From positions 1 through 34,779 of IMG/VR virus record IMGVR_UViG_3300020054_000004: a DNA stretch of 34,779 nt, one strand, 5' to 3'. The notes beneath the pieces are model-generated. The model saw nothing but the letters and a program-made list of their open reading frames with translations. It ran no database searches and was not told the origin of the DNA. Source of the DNA: a virus. Each line of letters begins with the position of its first letter. Position 1 is the first letter of the stretch. The translations under genes and the position numbers were made by a program. Below, in pieces: positions 3,219 to 34,779 of the stretch.

Positions 3219-4580
3219 CAGATTCATCTCCTCTGATAGGGTGACCCGCTCGAGTGCAGACGCTGCCTGCTGTGGGCGGGGGGTGAGGGTGACTGCCAAC
3301 AGCTGAGCAGAGCCAGTGCGTTCACCGCTCTCTCTGGCGTAGACGTCACCTAGGAAAAACTCGGGGGAGCTCCAGAGGGTGCCACCAGCAGCAGCCACCA
3401 CCTCAGCTCCCCGTTGATTGTAGACGGGCACAGCAATCAATTGGCGCCCATCTTCTGAGAGCCGCAGCTCTGCAATCTCACCCAGTGCGCCACTCTCCTC
3501 AGGGGTGCTTTGTCCCCCGGGGGCGCTCTGATGATTCCAATCAATGATCACAGGGTCTGCGTTTTTGCGAGCATCAAAGACCCGCTTGATCTCTGCTAGG
3601 TGCTCTGGCGTCACATCACAGATTAGATCACCTGATAGGCGCGAGGAGACCTTGCCAGCGCTCAGGGTGACAAATGGGCGGCCCATGGTTTGGCCATCAT
3701 CCACCACCACCACCAGCCCATCTACCTCTGCCAGTGCTATCTCATTGAAGGCTGCTCGATAGGTGGGGCGCTCTGCGAGCCTCTGATCTGCTGCATCCAT
3801 TTGTCTCACCAGCTTTCTGGCCCATGAATATCCAGCATCCCCACCCCAGCCCTGCCAGGCCTGCCACCCTTTGCCCTGCTCTGGCCAGCTGGAGCCCTCT
3901 TTGTCCACCTCATGCCGGGTGAAATACGCCAGCATCCTGCGGGCCGTCTCGGGGCTGATGGTTTTGCCGTTGGATAGATCACGCGCACGCGCGAGGCCCA
4001 CAGCTGTCATGCCACGCTGCGAGGGGGGCTTCTCTGCCCTCACCTCGAGCGCTCGAGCTGCTGCCTTGCGCACCCCATCAGGGGGAGAGAAATCAATGTG
4101 CGCATAGCGCTCTGCCAGCTGCTCTGTGGCCTGCTCTTTGGCTTTGTAGCTGGGGTGTTCTTTAGGCAGCAGATCATCATCTGTGGTGTAGGATTTTTTG
4201 CGCTCGCCTGTGCCCACTAAGCGGAGGAAGGCCTTCACCCTGCCCAGCGCCCACTGATTGCGGCTGGTGACGCTGGGCCTGTGGCTCACAGAGAAAGCGC
4301 CTGCGCCCCTGCGATAGACAGCCCGCAGCATCCCCAGATCAACCCTGCGCCCGGGGGCAGAGTATCGCTCATTGTGCTCATCTCTGAGCCCCTCGAGCGC
4401 AGCCTCTGCAGCATCAGAGATTTTGATGCCGCCGCGGGTAGATGATGCAGAGCCCGGGCGATTGCGGGTAGAGCCAGTGCGTTGATCGCGCGCGGGCGCT
4501 GGCGTCTTAGGATCATCCTCTGCCAACCGGCGCCGCAGTGTGGATGAGATCCTGCGCCTCAGTTTGCGCTTAGCGCTCAT
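2595..4580 (-). CDS. Fused prohead protease and scaffold, Mu gpI-like
   Basis: A 661-residue protein with three parts. Residues about 1-260 form a basic N-terminal region. It includes a segment with SPETARRMLAYFTRHEVDK and GWGGDAGYSWARKLV, a domain I recall from other phage protease-adjacent proteins. Residues about 270-450 resemble Mu gpI-type prohead protease (VIIDWNHQSA, EIAELRLSEDG, LWSSPEFF). Residues about 455-661 are acidic coiled coil (Glu/Ala/Gln-rich) typical of scaffolds. The protease matures the prohead and removes scaffold. An internal ATG with its own ribosome site at 3218 may yield free scaffold. The start overlaps the upstream stop (ATGA). Confidence 0.8.
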   Translation of the reverse strand: MSAKRKLRRRISSTLRRRLAEDDPKTPAPARDQRTGSTRNRPGSASSTRGGIKISDAAEAALEGLRDEHNERYSAPGRRVDLGMLRAVYRRGAGAFSVSHRPSVTSRNQWALGRVKAFLRLVGTGERKKSYTTDDDLLPKEHPSYKAKEQATEQLAERYAHIDFSPPDGVRKAAARALEVRAEKPPSQRGMTAVGLARARDLSNGKTISPETARRMLAYFTRHEVDKEGSSWPEQGKGWQAWQGWGGDAGYSWARKLVRQMDAADQRLAERPTYRAAFNEIALAEVDGLVVVVDDGQTMGRPFVTLSAGKVSSRLSGDLICDVTPEHLAEIKRVFDARKNADPVIIDWNHQSAPGGQSTPEESGALGEIAELRLSEDGRQLIAVPVYNQRGAEVVAAAGGTLWSSPEFFLGDVYARESGERTGSAQLLAVTLTPRPQQAASALERVTLSEEMNLMDVAEIEAIADLEQAKALLKQKDALVRELEARLKASREEMAEDEDDAEEMAEASSDAEEKEQMGEYKRMSEQLTQANTAQAAQIQALTEQVQALAEKEATTRREAEVGALLRSGRISPAERDVAEHAWALAERGDSLFWEMFSRRAAEHAVSLSEIGHGASGEEISQATIAQRAQELASSESITFSEAYERLARTEPALIKSAFGGF

Positions 4581-7709: not shown

Positions 7710-8947
7710 GCGCCACAGTCATCAATGCAGACTCAATAGATCACCTCAAAACGCTGCCAGACTCTAGCATTGATGCAGTGGTCACTGATCCCCCATATGG
7801 GCTGGGCAATTGCTCCCCCCGGGCAGTGAGCGCAGCGCTCACAGCGTGGCTGGCGGGTGAAGAGTATCAGCCCAGCGGGGCAGGCTTTATGGGTAAAAGC
7901 TGGGACGCATTTGTGCCCGGGCCAGAGCTCTGGCGTGAGGTATATCGAGTGCTCAAGCCAGGGGGCCATGCTGTGATCTTCGCTGGCTCACGCACTGTAG
8001 ACCTGATGGGGGTCGCAGTGAGGCTGGCTGGGTTTGAGGTGAGAGATATGCTTCACTGGCTTTATGGCAGTGGCTTCCCAAAATCTCATGATGTGAGCAA
8101 GGCGCTCGATAAGCGGGCAGGGGCTGAGCGTGAGGTGATTGGTGCAGGTGTCAGTGGGTCCACTCGCCTTATTTACTCTGGGGGTATGGGTGCCTTTGAT
8201 ATTACAGCCCCCGCCTCCCCTCTAGCGCAGCAGTGGTCTGGCTGGGGCACAGCCCTCAAGCCAGCGCATGAGCCGATCCTGCTCTGCCGCAAGCCACTGG
8301 CTGGCTCTGTGGCAGAGAATGTTGAGCAGTGGGGGGTGGGGGGGCTCAACATTGATGGGTGTAGGATTGAGACTGATGAATATATTTTTACAACTCCTAG
8401 AACCCAGCAATCTCATATTTATGGGAAGTATGCTCAGCAAGATCCAATGCAAAGCACAGGTCAAGAAATAGGCCGCTGGCCAGCCAATATCCTCCTAGAT
8501 CCTAGCGCAGGCGCAGCTCTTGATCTGCAGGCAGGTTTTGAGGCCAGCCGCTTCTTTTATGAGGGTAAGGCCAGCAGAGAGGAGCGTGAGGCAGGGCTGG
8601 TGGGGCTCGAGGCCCGCGCAGTGGGTGATGGCAGAGGGACGCCGATAGATAACCCTTATCAACGGGGTGAGACTAAGCGGCAGAATGTGCACCCCACCGT
8701 AAAGCCGATCGCAGTGATGCGCTGGCTCTGCAAGCTGATCACCCCGCCGGGGGGCGTGATCCTTGACCCGTTCTGCGGCAGCGGCACCACTGGCTGCGCT
8801 GCCACCCAGCTAGGGTTTGAGTTTGTGGGTATCGAGCGCGAGCCAGAGTATGCGGAGATTGCTCGAGCCAGGATCGCGCATTGGGGCTGCCTACCACCAG
8901 AGGAGCTGGGGGCGCGTAAGCCAGCTAAGCAGCCTACGCTGTTCTAA
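7685..8947 (+). CDS. DNA methyltransferase, beta class, probable N6-adenine
   Basis: A 420-residue protein. Motif IV DPPY is at residues 35-38 near the N-terminus, and the SAM-binding motif DPFCGSGTTG is at about 361-370 near the C-terminus. That order defines beta-class amino-methyltransferases. DPPY is typical of N6-adenine enzymes, though N4-cytosine is not excluded. The middle part (about 150-300) would hold target recognition. It overlaps terL by 25 nt and converges on the deaminase gene with a 4-bp overlap. No restriction enzyme is adjacent, so it is likely a solitary phage enzyme protecting or marking DNA. The N-terminal start is uncertain because the ribosome site is weak. Confidence 0.9.
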   Translation: MGEAGQILSATVINADSIDHLKTLPDSSIDAVVTDPPYGLGNCSPRAVSAALTAWLAGEEYQPSGAGFMGKSWDAFVPGPELWREVYRVLKPGGHAVIFAGSRTVDLMGVAVRLAGFEVRDMLHWLYGSGFPKSHDVSKALDKRAGAEREVIGAGVSGSTRLIYSGGMGAFDITAPASPLAQQWSGWGTALKPAHEPILLCRKPLAGSVAENVEQWGVGGLNIDGCRIETDEYIFTTPRTQQSHIYGKYAQQDPMQSTGQEIGRWPANILLDPSAGAALDLQAGFEASRFFYEGKASREEREAGLVGLEARAVGDGRGTPIDNPYQRGETKRQNVHPTVKPIAVMRWLCKLITPPGGVILDPFCGSGTTGCAATQLGFEFVGIEREPEYAEIARARIAHWGCLPPEELGARKPAKQPTLF

Positions 8948-9411
8948 ACTACGCAGTGCACCCTCACCCCGTGCTCTGAGAGATACCTCAGCCCCTCATC
9001 ATCCCTGCCTGCGAGCTCGCACCACACCACAGCCACCCCGGCGTGATGAGCCAGCTTGGCACACTGCAGGCAGGGCGCCCCGCTCACAATCAGCCAGGCA
9101 CCATTCACTGCGGCGCCGCGTCGGGCAGCATTGGCGATTGCATTGGCCTCAGCATGATGGCAGCCCACCTCACAGCGCTGCCCTGATGGGATGGCGAGCT
9201 GATCACGCAGGCAGCCATCAGGCCCGCAGCTGATCGCTGGCCCTCGAGGTGGGCCATTCCAGCCCTCAGCGATGATGGTGTTGGTTTGTGCGTCTACCAG
9301 CAGCGCACCATACTGCGCCCGGTCACAGGGTGAGAGCTGCGCCAGCGTGCGGCAGTAGCTGAGGCGCGCAGCTAGGTGTCGCGGGTTCAATGGTTGCGCT
9401 CTCTGCGCCAT
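8944..9411 (-). CDS. dCMP deaminase-like zinc enzyme
   Basis: A 155-residue member of the cytidine/deoxycytidylate deaminase fold. The zinc ligands and catalytic Glu are HAE at residues 86-88 and PCLQC at 113-117 (Cys114 and Cys117). A second Cys/His cluster (CGPDGC...GQRCEVGCHH, about 62-86) is typical of ComE-type dCMP deaminases. It would turn dCMP into dUMP. The gene overlaps the ThyX 3' end by 25 nt, and ThyX would methylate that dUMP to dTMP. RNA- or other base-deaminating relatives cannot be fully excluded. Confidence 0.88.
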   Translation of the reverse strand: MAQRAQPLNPRHLAARLSYCRTLAQLSPCDRAQYGALLVDAQTNTIIAEGWNGPPRGPAISCGPDGCLRDQLAIPSGQRCEVGCHHAEANAIANAARRGAAVNGAWLIVSGAPCLQCAKLAHHAGVAVVWCELAGRDDEGLRYLSEHGVRVHCVV

Positions 9412-10037
9412 GCCCCCAGCGTCACAGGCCAGAGGTCAAACACAATGCGCTCAACTTGCTGCGCGTACGCTCTGATCTCCTGCTGGGCATCTGGTGCTAG
9501 GCGCAGGTCTAGGAAATGAAGTAGCGCTTGAAGAGAGGCTGTCCAGATCACCTCACTCTGTACAGCCTGTGGCAGTATTGCCCGCGCCTGCTCTCGACAA
9601 ACGCCAGCATCTATCAGCTTCTGATAGGCCGCGGCTGCTGCCTCGCAGCCCTCCACATATGCTTTCTCTGCCTCTAGGGTGAGATCAGCTGGGAGCTGCC
9701 CCCCGCTGCCTTGTTTGGTACCAGGCGCAGCCTCACGCCAGATCTCTGGCTTCCAGACGCCTGCGCGCTCCGCATCAAACTGCACATAGCGATAGCTGAT
9801 CTCATTCCAGCTGCAGCCTATCTGATGTTTGCCCCACTGCCTCAAAACAAAGATGGGCGCCACTACATGAAATGACGCATAGCAATGGCGCAGCGGGCTG
9901 GTGTGCTGGTGCCGGATCAAGTAGTCGATCAAGCTCTGCTCTGACGGCCCAATCTCTGTGACGGTGCGGCCCAGTGAAACGCGAGCAACATTGGCCACCG
10001 TTACATCAGAGCCCATTTTGTCGATTAATTTTATCAT
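9387..10037 (-). CDS. thyX: FAD-dependent thymidylate synthase ThyX
   Basis: A 216-residue protein, the usual ThyX length. It has RHQHTSPLRHCYASFHV (about 42-58) and the core RQWGKHQIGCSWNEISYRY (66-84), which aligns with the ThyX signature RQW-RHR-x-S-x-NE-S-RY. The usual RHR is KHQ here, and there is one extra residue before SWNE. It makes dTMP from dUMP using methylene-tetrahydrofolate and reduced FAD. It heads a two-gene minus operon with the deaminase and is divergent from the gene at 10094. Confidence 0.9.
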   Translation of the reverse strand: MIKLIDKMGSDVTVANVARVSLGRTVTEIGPSEQSLIDYLIRHQHTSPLRHCYASFHVVAPIFVLRQWGKHQIGCSWNEISYRYVQFDAERAGVWKPEIWREAAPGTKQGSGGQLPADLTLEAEKAYVEGCEAAAAAYQKLIDAGVCREQARAILPQAVQSEVIWTASLQALLHFLDLRLAPDAQQEIRAYAQQVERIVFDLWPVTLGAWRRERNH

Positions 10038-13765: not shown

Positions 13766-14650
13766 CTAGCGGCGGCTGGGGCCCCCCATATGATAGTGCA
13801 GCTCCCCATTGCGGCAGGCGCCCCTGAGGCGATCAGCCACGGGCGCCGTGAGATAGCCTGCGCCAAAAAATCCCAACTCAGCAGGCGTGAGGTTAGAGCT
13901 GATCATCACGGGCAGCGCAGCTGCGTGCGCCTCATGCAGCAAGCGACAAATCTCTCTGCGCTCGAGCTCCCCCCGCTGCATCCCCACCTCATCAATGAAG
14001 AGTGCGCGGGCACCCTTGATGCTGGCGCCCGCATCGATCTGCTCATGCCCCTCCACCTTATCCATCTGGTTTGAGAGCAATGAGCGGTAGTGGTGCGCCT
14101 CGATATAGGCAGCCCTGCGCCCGGATAGGGTGGCCCTCAGCGCAGCCCCCACCATGAAGTGGGTTTTGCCTGTGCCAGGGGGCCCCGTGAGGATGAGCGC
14201 GGGGGCCTCGCCTGCGTCTGCCAGCTCAAACCAGCGCTCGAGGATCGCGCCCAGCCCCTCTGGCATCTCATAGTTTTCGAGCGTGAGGCGCTGGGCACCC
14301 GCGGGCAGGCGCATCTTCTGCACAGCCCTGAGCTGCCTATTCATCACCCCACACGGGCAGAGCTTGAAGCGACGGCGCCCAGCGTCATCTGTAGTGCTGC
14401 GCCCATGCCCCCCACCCGCGCAGGGCAGACAATTGAGGTTGCAGCGCCCCAGCTGCCGCGCCACCACCACCCTGCGCCGCTGGGTGGGGTCTACCTCTGC
14501 GCTCTCCTCGAGGCGCTCGAGCAGTGAGGTGGGGGGCTGCTCGAGCGCCTCTGCCTCTGCGGCCTCTTTTCGGTGTGCGCCTGCGCGGAAACCCTCGAGC
14601 ACAGCAGCGAGGCGATCAACTGCGCCCCCGATATGCACTAGCTCACTCAT
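13766..14650 (-). CDS. DnaC/IstB-like helicase loader ATPase
   Basis: A 294-residue AAA+ protein. Walker A is GPPGTGKT (156-163) and Walker B is ALFIDEVG (216-223). A sensor-like SSN follows at about 251, and an arginine-rich end at about 276. The N-terminal third has a cysteine cluster, C70-x3-C74-x2-C77 and C98-x-C100, resembling a zinc-binding domain. Proteins of this type load the host replicative helicase, the role of lambda P. It overlaps the initiator-like gene by 8 bp, with AGGAGAG ahead of its ATG, and is followed by a strong terminator. Confidence 0.88.
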   Translation of the reverse strand: MSELVHIGGAVDRLAAVLEGFRAGAHRKEAAEAEALEQPPTSLLERLEESAEVDPTQRRRVVVARQLGRCNLNCLPCAGGGHGRSTTDDAGRRRFKLCPCGVMNRQLRAVQKMRLPAGAQRLTLENYEMPEGLGAILERWFELADAGEAPALILTGPPGTGKTHFMVGAALRATLSGRRAAYIEAHHYRSLLSNQMDKVEGHEQIDAGASIKGARALFIDEVGMQRGELERREICRLLHEAHAAALPVMISSNLTPAELGFFGAGYLTAPVADRLRGACRNGELHYHMGGPSRR

Positions 14651-15305
14651 GGCTCTCTCCTCTGAATTGTTGGTGGTAGGCCTCGATTGATGAGGCTAGG
14701 CGCGAGAAGTAGGGGGTGACCTCTCCCTCTGGCTCTGGCTGTGGCTCGGGCTCGGGCTCTGGCTGGGGTGCTGGCGAGCTCCACCAATCCCAACCAGAGG
14801 CAGGGGGAGAGTTGACTGGCGCCTCTGGCTTACCCTGCTGCTGGGCGCCAGCGCCTGCGCGCTCAGTCTGCTCAACAGATTCTCTGCTGTTGGTAGATGT
14901 TGGTAGAGGTTGGTATGGGGGGAAAGAAACTGCACATTTGGTGTGCACTATCTTGCCCATTTCCGGTGCACTATCCTGCACCCCAAACTGTGCACTATCT
15001 TGCACAGGTGCACTATTCTGCACCTGTGCACTATCTTGCACAGTTTGGGGGATGATGAGGCGGCGCCCTTGCACATATCCTTGGCGCTTGAGCTCTTGAA
15101 GCAAATTGCTCGCCTGCCTCTCCGAGTACCCCAGCTGCGCGACGATACGCGCGCGGGGGCCACGCCCCAGCTGCCCCGTCTGATAATCCAGATAGCTGGT
15201 GAGCTCGAGCAGAGCCAACCTTGCACCCGGGCTCAGGTCTGCTGCCTGCCAGATGGCGCGCAGGTCAGCGAATGATGGGGCGTGAGGCCCCGGCTTACAG
15301 CCCAT
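14643..15305 (-). CDS. Replication initiator-like winged-helix protein carrying iterons (lambda O-like)
   Basis: A 220-residue protein. Residues about 24-85 form a winged helix-turn-helix (LSPGARLALLELTSYLD, ARIVAQLGYSERQASNLLQELKRQGYV). The middle (about 88-125) is encoded by the iterons and reads as VQDSAQ-type repeats. The C-terminal part is a Glu-Pro/Gln-Pro linker followed by a terminal helix (YFSRLASSIEAYHQQFRG) that could contact the loader. Gene layout matches lambda O, where the origin lies inside the gene and the loader follows. The ribosome site GGAGGAGGG precedes the ATG at 15305. I infer an initiator role from this layout; sequence identity to O is not obvious. Confidence 0.75.
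   Translation of the reverse strand: MGCKPGPHAPSFADLRAIWQAADLSPGARLALLELTSYLDYQTGQLGRGPRARIVAQLGYSERQASNLLQELKRQGYVQGRRLIIPQTVQDSAQVQNSAPVQDSAQFGVQDSAPEMGKIVHTKCAVSFPPYQPLPTSTNSRESVEQTERAGAGAQQQGKPEAPVNSPPASGWDWWSSPAPQPEPEPEPQPEPEGEVTPYFSRLASSIEAYHQQFRGESHE
14727..14765. repeat. Hexamer-type repeat coding a Glu-Pro/Gln-Pro linker
   Basis: Imperfect GGCTCG/GGCTCT/GGCTGT hexamers encode the PEPEPEPQPEPE stretch of the initiator-like protein. Similar tracts occur in the genes at 11500 and 12264. It is probably a flexible linker region prone to length change. Confidence 0.6.
14889..14918. repeat. Three tandem 10-bp repeats beside the iterons
   Basis: GTTGGTAGAT, GTTGGTAGAG and GTTGGTATGG lie end to end, one per helical turn, 24 bp from iteron 1 and inside the initiator-like gene. 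They may be an unwinding or accessory protein-binding element of the origin. Confidence 0.6.
14943..15041. repeat. Five 16-bp dyad-symmetric iterons, probable replication origin
   Basis: The units are at 14943-14958 (arm altered, TGCCC), 14966-14981, 14990-15005, 15008-15023 and 15026-15041, with consensus GTGCACTATCTTGCAC. Each is itself an inverted repeat (GTGCA-N6-TGCAC). Start-to-start spacing is 23, 24, 18 and 18 bp. Unit 1 is out of coding phase with the others, yet its DNA is conserved, so selection is on DNA and not on the peptide. Five such sites inside an initiator-like gene next to a helicase-loader gene is the lambda ori layout. Confidence 0.8.
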
Positions 15306-15318
15306 CTCTCTCCCTCCT

Positions 15319-15390
15319 CCTCATTGGGTCACAATAATGTATTGACAACCTCTTTGCGTGTTGTCAATAATGTTGACACTCCCAATGAGG
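15319..15390. promoter_or_regulatory. Nested-dyad divergent promoter/operator of the replication switch
   Basis: Two inverted repeats share one axis (15354.5). The inner arms are TATTGACAAC (15340-15349) and GTTGTCAATA (15360-15369); the outer arms are CCTCATTGGG (15319-15328) and CCCAATGAGG (15381-15390). The inner arms place TTGACA on both strands. On the plus strand TTGACA (15342-15347) is followed after 18 bp by AATAAT (15366-15371). CAATAATGT also recurs directly at 15332 and 15365. It sits between the initiator-like operon and the RHH regulator gene, so autoregulation by the RHH protein is likely but inferred. Confidence 0.75.
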
Positions 15391-15459: not shown

Positions 15460-15633
15460 ATGAGCCAGATGATCACCTACAACCAGCGCCTGCCGCGCGA
15501 GCTCCTCGAGCAACTCGACGCAGAGCTGGCGCACGCCCGCGCCGCCACCCCTCGGCTCAGCCGCTCTGCGCTGGTGCGCGAGATGCTGGAGGCTGAGATC
15601 CTGCGCCGGCAGGCGCAGCGGGGGCAGCAGTGA
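15460..15633 (+). CDS. Ribbon-helix-helix (Arc/CopG-like) regulator
   Basis: A 57-residue protein with the RHH layout: a short strand (MITYNQRLP), helix 1 (RELLEQLDAELAHARAA), and helix 2 (SRSALVREMLEAEILRRQAQ). RHH dimers insert the strand into the major groove at paired short operators. The start at 15460 is set by GGAGAGAGA; a longer in-frame stretch from 15358 overlaps the promoter. It is the first gene of the plus-strand operon next to the nested-dyad operator, its probable target. The stop overlaps the next gene's GTG. Confidence 0.85.
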   Translation: MSQMITYNQRLPRELLEQLDAELAHARAATPRLSRSALVREMLEAEILRRQAQRGQQ

Positions 15634-15860
15634 AGGTCATCTGCCGCCCCACCACCCGCCACATCTACTCCACCCGGGGGCATTTCCCAGCCCGCGTGAG
15701 GGATATTGACGATATCACCATCACTGCCCGCTGCGCTTGCTGCGGCGCTCTGGGCCAGTGGGGCATCGAGCTCCTGGACTACCACAGCGAGGATGGCCTC
15801 ATCCTCACCTGCGATCCCTGCGCGGCGCTGCATGATCTGCGCGCCACCACACAGAAATAA
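15630..15860 (+). CDS. Small zinc-ribbon-like protein
   Basis: A 76-residue protein with a GTG start overlapping the RHH stop (GTGA). Two cysteine pairs, CACC at about residues 35-38 and CDPC at about 61-64, sit about 23 residues apart. This is the spacing of a treble-clef or zinc-ribbon fold. The N-terminus has a basic VICRPTTRHIY segment. Function unknown; nucleic-acid or protein binding is plausible. Confidence 0.7.
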   Translation: MKVICRPTTRHIYSTRGHFPARVRDIDDITITARCACCGALGQWGIELLDYHSEDGLILTCDPCAALHDLRATTQK

Positions 15861-15871
15861 AAGGAGAGAGA

Positions 15872-16114
15872 ATGGACTACATCAGAGCCAACCAAGACCA
15901 CCCCGCGGACCCTGACACCCCGTGGATCGCGTCCCCTGAGTTCATCGCAGCCTATCACTGGCTCGCGTGTTGTCCCCCCAGCTGGGGGGAGGCGGTCTGC
16001 TCCAACGCGCGCTGTGAGTGCGGTGGCGACTTCGAGATCCTTATCTTCAGCGACTATTCCAGCGCCCGCTTCTCCTGCGAGCGCTGCGCTGAGCGGAGCA
16101 TCAATAATGCCTGA
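15872..16114 (+). CDS. Small cysteine-rich protein
   Basis: An 80-residue protein with AAAGGAGAGAGA ahead of its ATG. The cysteines are CC at about 33-34, C43, the CEC group at about 48-50, and a final CERC at about 69-72, in two clusters that could bind one or two metals. It is not recognised. It overlaps the next gene by 8 nt. Confidence 0.7.
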   Translation: MDYIRANQDHPADPDTPWIASPEFIAAYHWLACCPPSWGEAVCSNARCECGGDFEILIFSDYSSARFSCERCAERSINNA

Positions 16115-16376: not shown

Positions 16377-16393
16377 AGAGGGGAGACGTAAAG

Positions 16394-17386
16394 ATGAACA
16401 TGCTCACCAATGAAGCGCAAGTGGAGCTCCTCGAGCGGCAGGCTGCTGCGCGCATGATGCTGGCGCAGGCGAGGCAGCTGGAGCTCCAGAATGAGCTCAC
16501 CCAGCTGGAGCTGGAGGAGAAGCGGGCCGCGCTCAAGATGCAGGAGGCTGAGCGCATCAGCGCCTCGACCTATGCCAAGCAGAGCCCGCCAGATGTCTAT
16601 TATGCTTGGCGAGCTATGGGGGAGCCCCGGGGCCTCAACATGGCGCAGACCCTGCAGTCTGCCCACACCATGCGCGGGGGCAAGCTCTCAGAGCACGCTG
16701 CCCTGCAGTGGGGGGATGTGGAGCGCAGCGGGCTGTTGGAAGATCTGCGCGTTGTCGAGCGCTCCCCCAATGCGGTGGTGCTCGATATCAAGCGGCGCGG
16801 GCGCTCACCCCAGCGCATCTCTTGGACTATGGAGGATGCCCAGCGCGCAGGCATCGCAAACAGCAACACCTGGCGCCAGTATCCTGCCCGGATGCTGGAG
16901 GCGCGCGCAAAAACTGAGGCCGCCACGCTGATCTTCAGCGACATCACCACTGGCGCAGGCGGCAGCGGCGCCAACACCTACAGCACTGAAGAGGCAGCGT
17001 TCTTTCAGGGTGAGGATCGCGAAGCCCTCGCCGCTGTGGTGGGCGTGCCAGAGCTGCCACCCAGCGAGACGCCTGCCCCCTCTGCGCCCCCGCGCCCCAG
17101 CGCTGCCTCTGCGCCCCCGCGCCCCTCTGCGCCCCCGCGCCCCTCTGCGCCCCCCGCGCCTGCTGGGCCGCCCGCCCATATCAAGCTGCGCTTTGAGCAA
17201 ATCCTCGAGCAGCGCAATATCCCCTCAGAGACTGCCATGCTGTATCTGCGCGGAGCCGCTGTCGCGCCGCCTCGAACGTATCAGGAGTTGGGCAGGCTGG
17301 TGGATGAGCACTTTTCTCTGGATGGCCCCTTTTACGCAGCCCACCCGCTGCTGCTGCCAGAGGAGATCAGCGGGAGCGAGCAGTGA
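16394..17386 (+). CDS. RecT-like single-strand annealing protein
   Basis: A 330-residue protein; the start at 16394 follows GGGGAG. The core (about 65-215) matches the phage RecT-type pattern: SAHTMRGGKLSEHAALQWGD, RSGLLEDLRVV, then RISWTMEDAQRAGIANSNTWRQYPARMLEARAKTEA. An N-terminal coiled coil (about 8-55) is extra. After about residue 240 come Pro/Ala/Arg/Ser repeats (APPRPS), then a C-terminal helical domain of about 70 residues. RecT-like proteins anneal ssDNA; the exonuclease partner is not seen here. It ends in TGATG with the 23-residue gene. Confidence 0.75.
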   Translation: MNMLTNEAQVELLERQAAARMMLAQARQLELQNELTQLELEEKRAALKMQEAERISASTYAKQSPPDVYYAWRAMGEPRGLNMAQTLQSAHTMRGGKLSEHAALQWGDVERSGLLEDLRVVERSPNAVVLDIKRRGRSPQRISWTMEDAQRAGIANSNTWRQYPARMLEARAKTEAATLIFSDITTGAGGSGANTYSTEEAAFFQGEDREALAAVVGVPELPPSETPAPSAPPRPSAASAPPRPSAPPRPSAPPAPAGPPAHIKLRFEQILEQRNIPSETAMLYLRGAAVAPPRTYQELGRLVDEHFSLDGPFYAAHPLLLPEEISGSEQ

Positions 17387-19895: not shown

Positions 19896-21320
19896 TTAAA
19901 TGATGTACCAACCAACACCAGCCCCAGCGCATACCAAGGTAAAGCTTGAATATTGCACTGAGAGGGTTTGATTGGTTGCCTGATCGTCGATGTCCTCACT
20001 GTTGCGATCAATTGTCACTGCTGCAGTGCCCAGCCGCTTGATCTGCAGCTTGAACCCAGCGCCCACATTGCCGCTGATCGCTGGCAGGGTCACAGTGACT
20101 GCAGAGGCCCCATTGTTGATCAGATAGACGCGCTCGAGCTCTGCCGCGGTCACTGCGCCAGGATCGGTGCCTGTGCCATCACCAATGGTGAATGAGGCGC
20201 TCTGGGTGTAGACGTTAGGGCGTGAGCCGCCACCAGATGCTGCTGGCTCTGCACGCCAGCCGCCTGCAGCGTGATCATAGGTCAGCACATAGTTATCAAT
20301 CCCTGCGCCTGCCGTATAACTGACATCTGCCAGAGCCGTCATGTTAGACGCTGCAATGCGAGCATCTGCGCGGGCGTCGGCGCGGGCGTCTGTGTAGTAG
20401 AGGTTAGCTGCTCCCTCTGCCACATCATCTGAATCGAGCACCACCACACCTGTGGCACCGTTCACACTGTCAACTGGCGCAGATGCTGCTGCCTCTGCAC
20501 GCCAGCCACCTGCAGCGTGATCATAGGTCAGCACATAGTTATCGATCCCTGCGCCTGCCGTATAGCTGACATCTGCCAGAGCCGTCATGTTGGACGCTGC
20601 AATGCGAGCATCTGCGCGGGCGTCAGCGCGGGCGTCTGTGTAGTAGAGGTTGGCTGCTCCCTCTGCCACATCATCTGAATCGAGCACCACCACACCTGTG
20701 GCACCGTTCACACTATCAACTGGCGCAGATGCTGCTGCCTCTGCACGCCAGCCACCTGCAGCGTGATCATAAGTCAGTACATAGTTATCGATCCCTGCGC
20801 CTGCCGTATAGCTGACATCTGCCAGAGCCGTCATGTTGGATGCCGCAATGCGAGCATCTGCGCGGGCGTCGGCGCGGGCGTCTGTGTAGTAGAGGTTAGC
20901 TGCTCCCTCTGCCACATCATCTGAATCGAGCACCACCACACCTGTGGCACCATTCACTGAGCTTACTGCGTCTGTATTGTCGATCTTGTCGATCTTGCTG
21001 TTGTCGATCACCCCACCCATATCTGCATTTACAATGAGGTGATCGCCGATTGCCCAATCACGCCCAAACTGGGTGCCAGCCACGCTCACCACATAGAAAT
21101 CACCCTTGAGCGCATTGCTGAGCGCAGGGGTGCCCGTGCTCGCGTCAAATGAGCCCTGATAGGTAAGCTGCCCCGTGAGGGCTGTATTTTCCCACTGCCC
21201 TGAGCCGCTGTTGTATTGCAGGATCTGGCCATTGGCCAGCAGCCCCAGGGTGACATCAGAGAGCCCGCTGAGCGCAGTTGCGCCACCACCACCACCGCCA
21301 CCAGAAATCATCAATGTCAT
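19896..21320 (-). CDS. Tail fibre protein with three 82-residue repeats
   Basis: A 474-residue protein. After a Gly-rich N-terminus come a strand-rich region and three nearly identical 82-residue units (VNGATGVVVLDSDDVAEG, NLYYTDARADARADAR, AGIDNYVLTYDHAAGGWRAE). The NGxTGxVVLDxDDxxEG...NLYYTDAR motif is common in phage tail fibres, where it forms the trimeric shaft. The C-terminus (about 380-474) is a separate beta domain with Gly/Thr/Val. The start has GGGAG about 10 nt upstream. It probably binds the host surface. Confidence 0.85.
   Translation of the reverse strand: MTLMISGGGGGGGATALSGLSDVTLGLLANGQILQYNSGSGQWENTALTGQLTYQGSFDASTGTPALSNALKGDFYVVSVAGTQFGRDWAIGDHLIVNADMGGVIDNSKIDKIDNTDAVSSVNGATGVVVLDSDDVAEGAANLYYTDARADARADARIAASNMTALADVSYTAGAGIDNYVLTYDHAAGGWRAEAAASAPVDSVNGATGVVVLDSDDVAEGAANLYYTDARADARADARIAASNMTALADVSYTAGAGIDNYVLTYDHAAGGWRAEAAASAPVDSVNGATGVVVLDSDDVAEGAANLYYTDARADARADARIAASNMTALADVSYTAGAGIDNYVLTYDHAAGGWRAEPAASGGGSRPNVYTQSASFTIGDGTGTDPGAVTAAELERVYLINNGASAVTVTLPAISGNVGAGFKLQIKRLGTAAVTIDRNSEDIDDQATNQTLSVQYSSFTLVCAGAGVGWYII
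20236..20959. repeat. Three tandem 246-bp repeats in the tail fibre gene
   Basis: The period is 246 bp (for example TTCACACT at 20461 and 20707). The copies differ at only a few positions, mostly third codon positions. The near identity suggests recent duplication and a site of copy-number change. Confidence 0.85.
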
Positions 21321-34002: not shown

Positions 34003-34779
34003 CAGTGCTGCATCCCACGCCAGCGAGGGAATTGTTGAGCGATCACCCGCTCTCCCTCTGTTGGCTCGATTGATGGGAGGGAGAATACCCCACGCACATC
34101 AGTGGGGCTGCCCCCTGCCCTGCGCACATCGATCTCATTGGCATCAATGAGGCCATCATCATCAGTATCCAGCACCAACTGCTTTAGAGCGCGCTCGAGC
34201 AGATCAGCTGCGCGCTCTCCAGCCCGATCAGCTAGATCAGATTGAGCGCTCATTTCATAGATCAGCTGGGCTGCCAGGTACCTGTGAGCGGGCGCAAAAA
34301 CGTGAGGGTTGAAAATATCATCCTCTGTCTGCTCTGGCCCAATATGCTCTCTGATGCGCAGCGCCAGCTCCTCGAGTGCAGCTGCCACCTGTGGCTCCAG
34401 ATCTTGCTGCCTGCGCGGGATCATATCTCCCATCTGCGGCATATGCGCAATCAGGGAGCTCGAGCTCAGCCCGGTGGCAAATGGGTGGCGCACAATCTGC
34501 ACTGTGCCCTGTGCACCCACTGGCTCATTGGTAGGGGTGGCAGTGGCTGTGTAGCTGATACGCCACGCGAGCACACCTCTGGTGCCAGTGTGGGCTGCTG
34601 GGATTGTATAGGTGTAGCCTGCCCAGCGGAGCTCCGCTGATGCAGTGAGTGACAGCCCACGGGGGAGCACATCAGCCAGAATCGCAGTGGTGCCCTCGAG
34701 GCGATCAACTGTGACCGCAAACACACCATCACCCGCAGTGATGAGAAACGCTCTGCCAGTGGTGGGGCCAATGAGATAT
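34002..34779 (-). CDS. Head-completion/adaptor-like protein with EF-hand loop, C-terminal part
   Basis: This is the continuation of the gene that starts at 286. Residues about 180-255 look helical, as in gp15/gp6-type adaptor proteins that sit under the portal. Residues about 272-283 (34169-34134) read DTDDDGLIDANE. That is a full canonical EF-hand calcium loop, with Asp at 1, 3 and 5, Gly 6, Ile 8, Asp 9 and Glu 12, and it follows a predicted helix. The stop overlaps the next gene's ATG (TGATG at 34002). The adaptor role comes from position in the operon; the calcium-loop match is direct. Confidence 0.75.
   Translation of the reverse strand, partial: YLIGPTTGRAFLITAGDGVFAVTVDRLEGTTAILADVLPRGLSLTASAELRWAGYTYTIPAAHTGTRGVLAWRISYTATATPTNEPVGAQGTVQIVRHPFATGLSSSSLIAHMPQMGDMIPRRQQDLEPQVAAALEELALRIREHIGPEQTEDDIFNPHVFAPAHRYLAAQLIYEMSAQSDLADRAGERAADLLERALKQLVLDTDDDGLIDANEIDVRRAGGSPTDVRGVFSLPSIEPTEGERVIAQQFPRWRGMQH
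34697..34779. repeat. 83-bp terminal direct repeat, right copy
   Basis: Exact copy of bases 1-83. It encodes part of the junction-spanning head-completion protein. It should be counted once in the genome. Confidence 0.95.

Follow-up and report, generated by a model that had tools for sequence, protein, structure and literature searches.

A nested inverted repeat between two divergent early phage operons: candidate face-to-face promoters flanked by a mirrored element

Gene context of the divergent region

The window analyzed here is the entire 34,779-nt stretch of the IMG/VR virus record IMGVR_UViG_3300020054_000004. Since the same 83 bases stand as a direct repeat at both ends of the record (1-83 = 34697-34779), it probably represents a complete genome of ~34.7 kb, either circular or circularly permuted; in a relative, contig G003, the genes matching the end genes of the window are joined. 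Elsewhere in the window, a deaminase-like gene and a ThyX-like thymidylate synthase gene (both recognised by eye) lie side by side at 8944-10037, and a tail-fibre-like protein encoded at 19896-21320 has long internal repeats (SVNGATGVVVLDSDDVAEGAANLYYTDARADARADARIAASN).

Two operons diverge from an intergenic space bounded by the start of the leftward initiator gene at 15305 and that of the rightward ribbon-helix-helix (RHH) gene at 15460. The leftward operon comprises an O-like initiator, a DnaC-like helicase loader, TerS and SSB, and the rightward operon the RHH protein, small Cys-rich proteins and a RecT-like protein; the term divergent replication operons, used in the initial annotation, therefore fits the former and had to be given up for the latter. 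The region is carried by three distinct genomes, namely the window and its relatives L003 and L136 (a further record, L002, is the same as the window there and adds nothing), all of which have retained the divergent order of the genes as well as the two start codons. L136 is the MAG contig PBDG01000001.1 (Rhodospirillaceae SP354), with the equivalent region at 4130-4253, while contig G003 (L005) stops within the module and therefore lacks the control region. No similar phage was found by DNA comparison with INPHARED, no plasmid relatives of the initiator were found, and a viral scan with the RecT-like protein gave no additional relative. The genes and the repeat block closest to the control region are as follows.

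13766-14650, minus strand: DnaC-like helicase loader (phrog_50, E 3e-18)
14643-15305, minus strand: O-like replication initiator, first leftward gene (phrog_270 replication initiation protein, E 6e-6; phrog_345 O-like, E 0.007)
14981-15050, no strand: iteron-like block of the TGCACTATCTTGCAC type within the initiator gene, by analogy with lambda O a candidate origin
15460-15633, plus strand: RHH-like protein of 57 aa, candidate regulator (Pfam RHH_1; start conserved in L003)
16391-17386, plus strand: RecT-like ssDNA annealing protein (phrog_561, E 3e-7; start set by conservation with L136)

Two small genes between the RHH and RecT-like genes (15630-16114) encode proteins of 76 and 80 aa with several cysteines, which belong to no confident family and have counterparts in L003 and L136.

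As in the lambda O/P module, the initiator gene contains repeats and precedes a helicase loader, and both would be transcribed from an early promoter; the window differs from that module in the weakness of its O-like match, in the DnaC-like nature of its loader and in its promoter pair. The iteron-like block carries a nested dyad of its own, with outer 14-bp arms (CCCCAAACTGTGCA/TGCACAGTTTGGGG) and inner 12-bp arms around the axis 15015.5. In columns 81-140 of the initiator alignment the same codon is used at 51 of 54 conserved residues between the window and L003 and at 46 of 50 between the window and L136, compared with 49/73 and 47/71, respectively, in columns 1-80. This near-total codon retention around the block suggests that the DNA itself is constrained, as it is in lambda O, and by the same analogy the block may be the origin, through which the leftward promoter would transcribe.

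Two dyads on one axis

The intergenic space contains the following elements, in which the promoters and their start sites are predictions.

15319-15328, no strand: outer left arm CCTCATTGGG, which the leftward transcript carries as CCCAATGAGG close to its predicted 5' end
15338-15367, minus strand: predicted leftward promoter TTGACA-18-AATACA, weaker, predicted start ~15329-15331
15340-15349, no strand: inner left arm TATTGACAAC, with the -35 TTGACA (15342-15347) of the rightward promoter, overlapping the predicted leftward -10 AATACA (15343-15338)
15342-15371, plus strand: predicted rightward promoter TTGACA-18-AATAAT, predicted start ~A15378
15350-15359, no strand: asymmetric core CTCTTTGCGT between the inner arms, candidate regulator-specific operator
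15360-15369, no strand: inner right arm GTTGTCAATA, with the -35 TTGACA (minus strand, 15367-15362) of the leftward promoter, overlapping the rightward -10 AATAAT (15366-15371)
15381-15390, no strand: outer right arm CCCAATGAGG, within the predicted rightward transcript at ~+4 to +13

The initial annotation had described two 10-bp inverted repeats centred on 15354.5 and TTGACA in both orientations, and our analysis bears out both statements: all ten positions are paired in the inner as well as in the outer dyad, the two dyads have one common axis at 15354.5, and TTGACA occurs on the plus strand at 15342-15347 and, read as TGTCAA, at 15362-15367, with a further plus-strand copy at 15373-15378. 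Among 20 Markov-shuffled windows, which had on average 1.75 axes with an inverted repeat of at least 10 bp, none had two such repeats on one axis, while the real window has two axes of this kind, 15354.5 and the axis 15015.5 of the iteron-like block within the initiator gene. The shared-axis geometry at 15354.5 is real and far beyond chance. The outer arms continue into GA/G-rich tracts, forming a looser inverted repeat of 22 nt with 77% pairing, and enclose a pocket (15329-15380) with a GC content of 35%, compared with 60% for the genome. The inner and outer arms are without common sequence, and the two dyads are different things, unlike in role and conservation. An additional palindrome, TGTCAATAATGTTGACA (15362-15378), was discarded as it is absent from L003.

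Symmetry of this kind could also reflect a single-strand hairpin or a cruciform acting in replication or transcription. Indeed, the sequence folds far better than its shuffles (z -7.8 and -7.1 as RNA of the two strands, -6.4 as DNA of the plus strand), and that of L003 folds as well (z -7.4). However, both arms occur together in no predicted transcript, the outer arms of L136 do not pair mutually, its right arm pairing within itself, and the candidate origin is at a distance of at least ~270 bp, within the initiator gene. We regard a role as hairpin or cruciform as very unlikely.

The inner arms as candidate opposed promoters

Sequences matching -35/-10 pairs at 16-18 bp spacing are present on both strands of the inner dyad, a strong one rightward and a weaker one leftward in the window. 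With an approximate promoter matrix based on E. coli, the rightward TTGACA-18-AATAAT scored 12.6, the top value on both strands of the 34.8-kb genome (the next being 9.9), and was the sole sigma70 site found within 3 kb, while the leftward match, with its poor -10 AATACA, ranked 19 in the whole window. In both directions the -10 of each promoter overlaps the -35 of its opposite. The 10-bp arms and the 10-bp gap between them would accordingly be set by promoter spacing, since each arm comprises one -35 and overlaps the other -10.

The relatives show the same arrangement. Both TATTGACA of the left inner arm and TGTCAATA of the right inner arm are kept in L003 and L136, and TATTGACA-N13/14-TGTCAATA, which is equivalent to TTGACA-17/18-AATANN in both directions, is kept in the three distinct phages. 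In L136 the identity of the RHH protein falls to 49% and another core sequence lies between the arms, yet both promoters are present with 17-bp spacing and scores of 11.7 and 11.0, the leftward counterpart (TTGACA-17-AATATT) being stronger than that of the window. Retention of the inner arms together with a core that changed alongside a diverged RHH protein is as expected for a promoter pair with a regulator-specific core. From this sequence evidence the inner dyad most likely represents two fully overlapping, face-to-face sigma70-type promoters of a phage early control region, a reading to which we assign a probability of about two in three. The earlier proposal that control of the two divergent early operons is shared at the dyad is well supported by the promoter scores and their conservation.

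Since both promoters are built on one pair of arms, each arm serving one promoter as its -35 and overlapping the -10 of its opposite, RNA polymerase would occupy the shared site in one orientation at a time, so that the promoters would be mutually exclusive, and would drive either the leftward replication operon or the rightward operon of the RHH, small and RecT-like proteins. Both promoters might then be shut or tilted together by a regulator, in all likelihood the RHH product, bound to the core that they share.

Arrangements of opposed, overlapping promoters are already known elsewhere, and this locus adds an example. The E. coli bioA/bioBFCD and Tn10 tetR/tetA promoters overlap face to face and have a common palindromic operator, their regulators belonging to families other than that of the window, and in the immunity region of phage P22 the small RHH repressors Arc and Mnt act at divergent phage promoters, in a gene context other than that of the window, whose RHH protein is weakly Arc-like. 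In the part of the published experimental account drawn on here, the Pc and Pr promoters of the Bacillus subtilis conjugative plasmid pLS20 are likewise opposed and of unequal strength, with the -10/-35 of one being the -35/-10 of the other, such that the boxes of the favoured Pr are exactly those of Pc with their roles exchanged, and the regulator gene is one of the divergent genes (PMC4207663). In contrast to the candidate regulator of the window, that of pLS20 is Rco, not an RHH protein, and acts through many operator motifs and DNA looping, and a flanking outer dyad of the present kind is not described for Pc/Pr in that part of the account (PMC4207663). Warman, Grainger and colleagues reported bidirectional promoters that share one -10 and whose starts are 7-25 bp, usually 18 bp, apart (PMC10268837). 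In these, as in the window, the symmetry of the promoter permits polymerase binding either way; however, the starts predicted in the window (~15378 and 15329-15331) are ~47 bp apart, outside that range, and its overlap is of -35 with -10. For the shared -10 class, polymerase competition was demonstrated when transcription in one direction was strongly raised (PMC12825309), and by analogy such competition is a reasonable expectation for the present pair.

The exact sequence does not appear to be a widespread class, since TATTGACA-N4..30-TGTCAATA was found in only 18 of 398 bacterial genomes, at varied spacings without clear preference and in numbers only slightly above those of a reversed-pattern control. 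A looser dyad pattern in IMG/VR likewise gave no obvious preference for a 10-bp gap among the matches listed. The same 30-bp dyad had one match in IMG/VR beyond the relatives, in the unrelated AT-rich contig L134 with other genes around it, which we judged to be a coincidence. The locus would be a compact natural case in which two early phage operons are made to share one polymerase site. The near-perfect symmetry of the reciprocal -35/-10 overlap could make it a clean system in which to study competition between polymerases and its possible tilting by a small RHH protein; apart from this promoter symmetry, the region looks like ordinary phage early control.

The candidate RHH regulator and the outer arms

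The 57-aa protein matches Pfam RHH_1 with an E value of 0.0012 and 19.1 bits, below the cut-off of 20.5, and two of three homologues also match at E<=0.1 (best 6e-4). Its similarity to Arc is weak (Pfam E 0.04). The model of the protein has two helices (pLDDT 80), with the strand not formed in the monomer, and gave no significant match in Foldseek. At positions 6, 8 and 10, which we take to be the base-contact positions by alignment with Arc, the residues are T/N/R in the window and L003 and T/T/K in L136. The core CTCTTTGCGT is nearly the same in the window and L003, in which these contact residues are alike, and differs in L136 with its diverged RHH protein. Control of both promoters by the RHH protein is plausible from its adjacency and weak homology.

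The outer arms lie at ~+4 to +13 of both predicted transcripts, just inside each. They had been said to form one element before the ribosome sites of both leaders, which is true of the left side, with 13 nt from the end of the arm to the initiator ATG at 15305, and fails on the right, where the arm is 69 nt from the RHH ATG at 15460, which has its own GA-rich ribosome site (AGAGGAGAGAGA). In L003 the outer arms are CTCGATGGG/CCCATCGAG, so that two of ten positions per side differ from the window with pairing retained. The outer axis coincides with the inner one in the window and deviates from it by half a base in L003, and L136 has no perfect outer dyad, from which it follows that the outer arms are not essential to the arrangement. 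They are a mirrored element common to the window and its close relative L003, without a known job. In addition to the opposed promoters, they may have an accessory role, as another pair of protein-binding sites or as a leader element common to both transcripts.

The whole nested dyad might instead be a multi-site RHH operator, in which four 10-bp elements, at ~-31/-10/+10/+31 from the axis and on one helix face, are bound cooperatively to shut both promoters. The element spacings of 20-21 bp are close to two helical turns, the RHH gene is adjacent and the outer arms changed in pairs in L003; moreover, there are RHH repressors, RelB among them, that bind to several 6-bp repeats along one face (PMC2812701). 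On the other hand, no sequence is common to the inner and outer arms, and the inner TATTGACA is kept alongside a diverged RHH protein, as a promoter would be. Furthermore, T6, N8 and R10 are identical in the window and L003 even though 2/10 outer-arm positions changed, and for this reason RHH reading of the changed bases is not favoured. Such an operator is in our view unlikely.

According to a further explanation, the outer arms constitute a shared RNA leader, with both mRNAs starting with nearly the same 20 nt and one RNA-binding protein or small RNA acting on both. Both predicted 5' ends run into CCCAAUGAGG and a purine tract, and the two leaders changed together in L003, but a ribosome site adjoins the arm on the left only, the arms are not retained in L136, and the locus matches no Rfam family (the Rfam scan gave no credible match, and its weak microRNA matches fall on the iteron palindromes). 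We therefore consider a common leader quite improbable. A conserved start codon of the leader within CCCAATGAGG was ruled out, as L003, with CCCATCGAG, has lost the ATG.

The outer arms may also be alike by template switching or inverted duplication and have no function, the start of the right leader being an inverted copy of the left one, with later errors copied from arm to arm. This accounts for the paired change without selection and is consistent with a dyad whose axis is exact in the window and displaced by half a base in L003, and which is imperfect in L136; however, it leaves the strong promoter match and the conserved inner arms unexplained, and as a reading of the locus it seems rather doubtful. 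Independent change yielded such compensated pairing in ~0.03-0.14% of simulated cases, a test that cannot separate selection from copying between the arms, so that either can explain the paired change in L003. The outer arms could also be a co-evolving recognition pair inside both starts for one trans-acting factor, a protein on DNA or RNA, whose specificity shifted between the window and L003. This is a speculative possibility with the odds well against it, under which that factor would balance phage replication against recombination.

In the more distant relative L136, the region at 4130-4253 includes a diverged RHH protein whose tail is rich in Gln/Glu, and the place of the right outer arm is taken by a local hairpin, CCCC-TTAT-GGGG.
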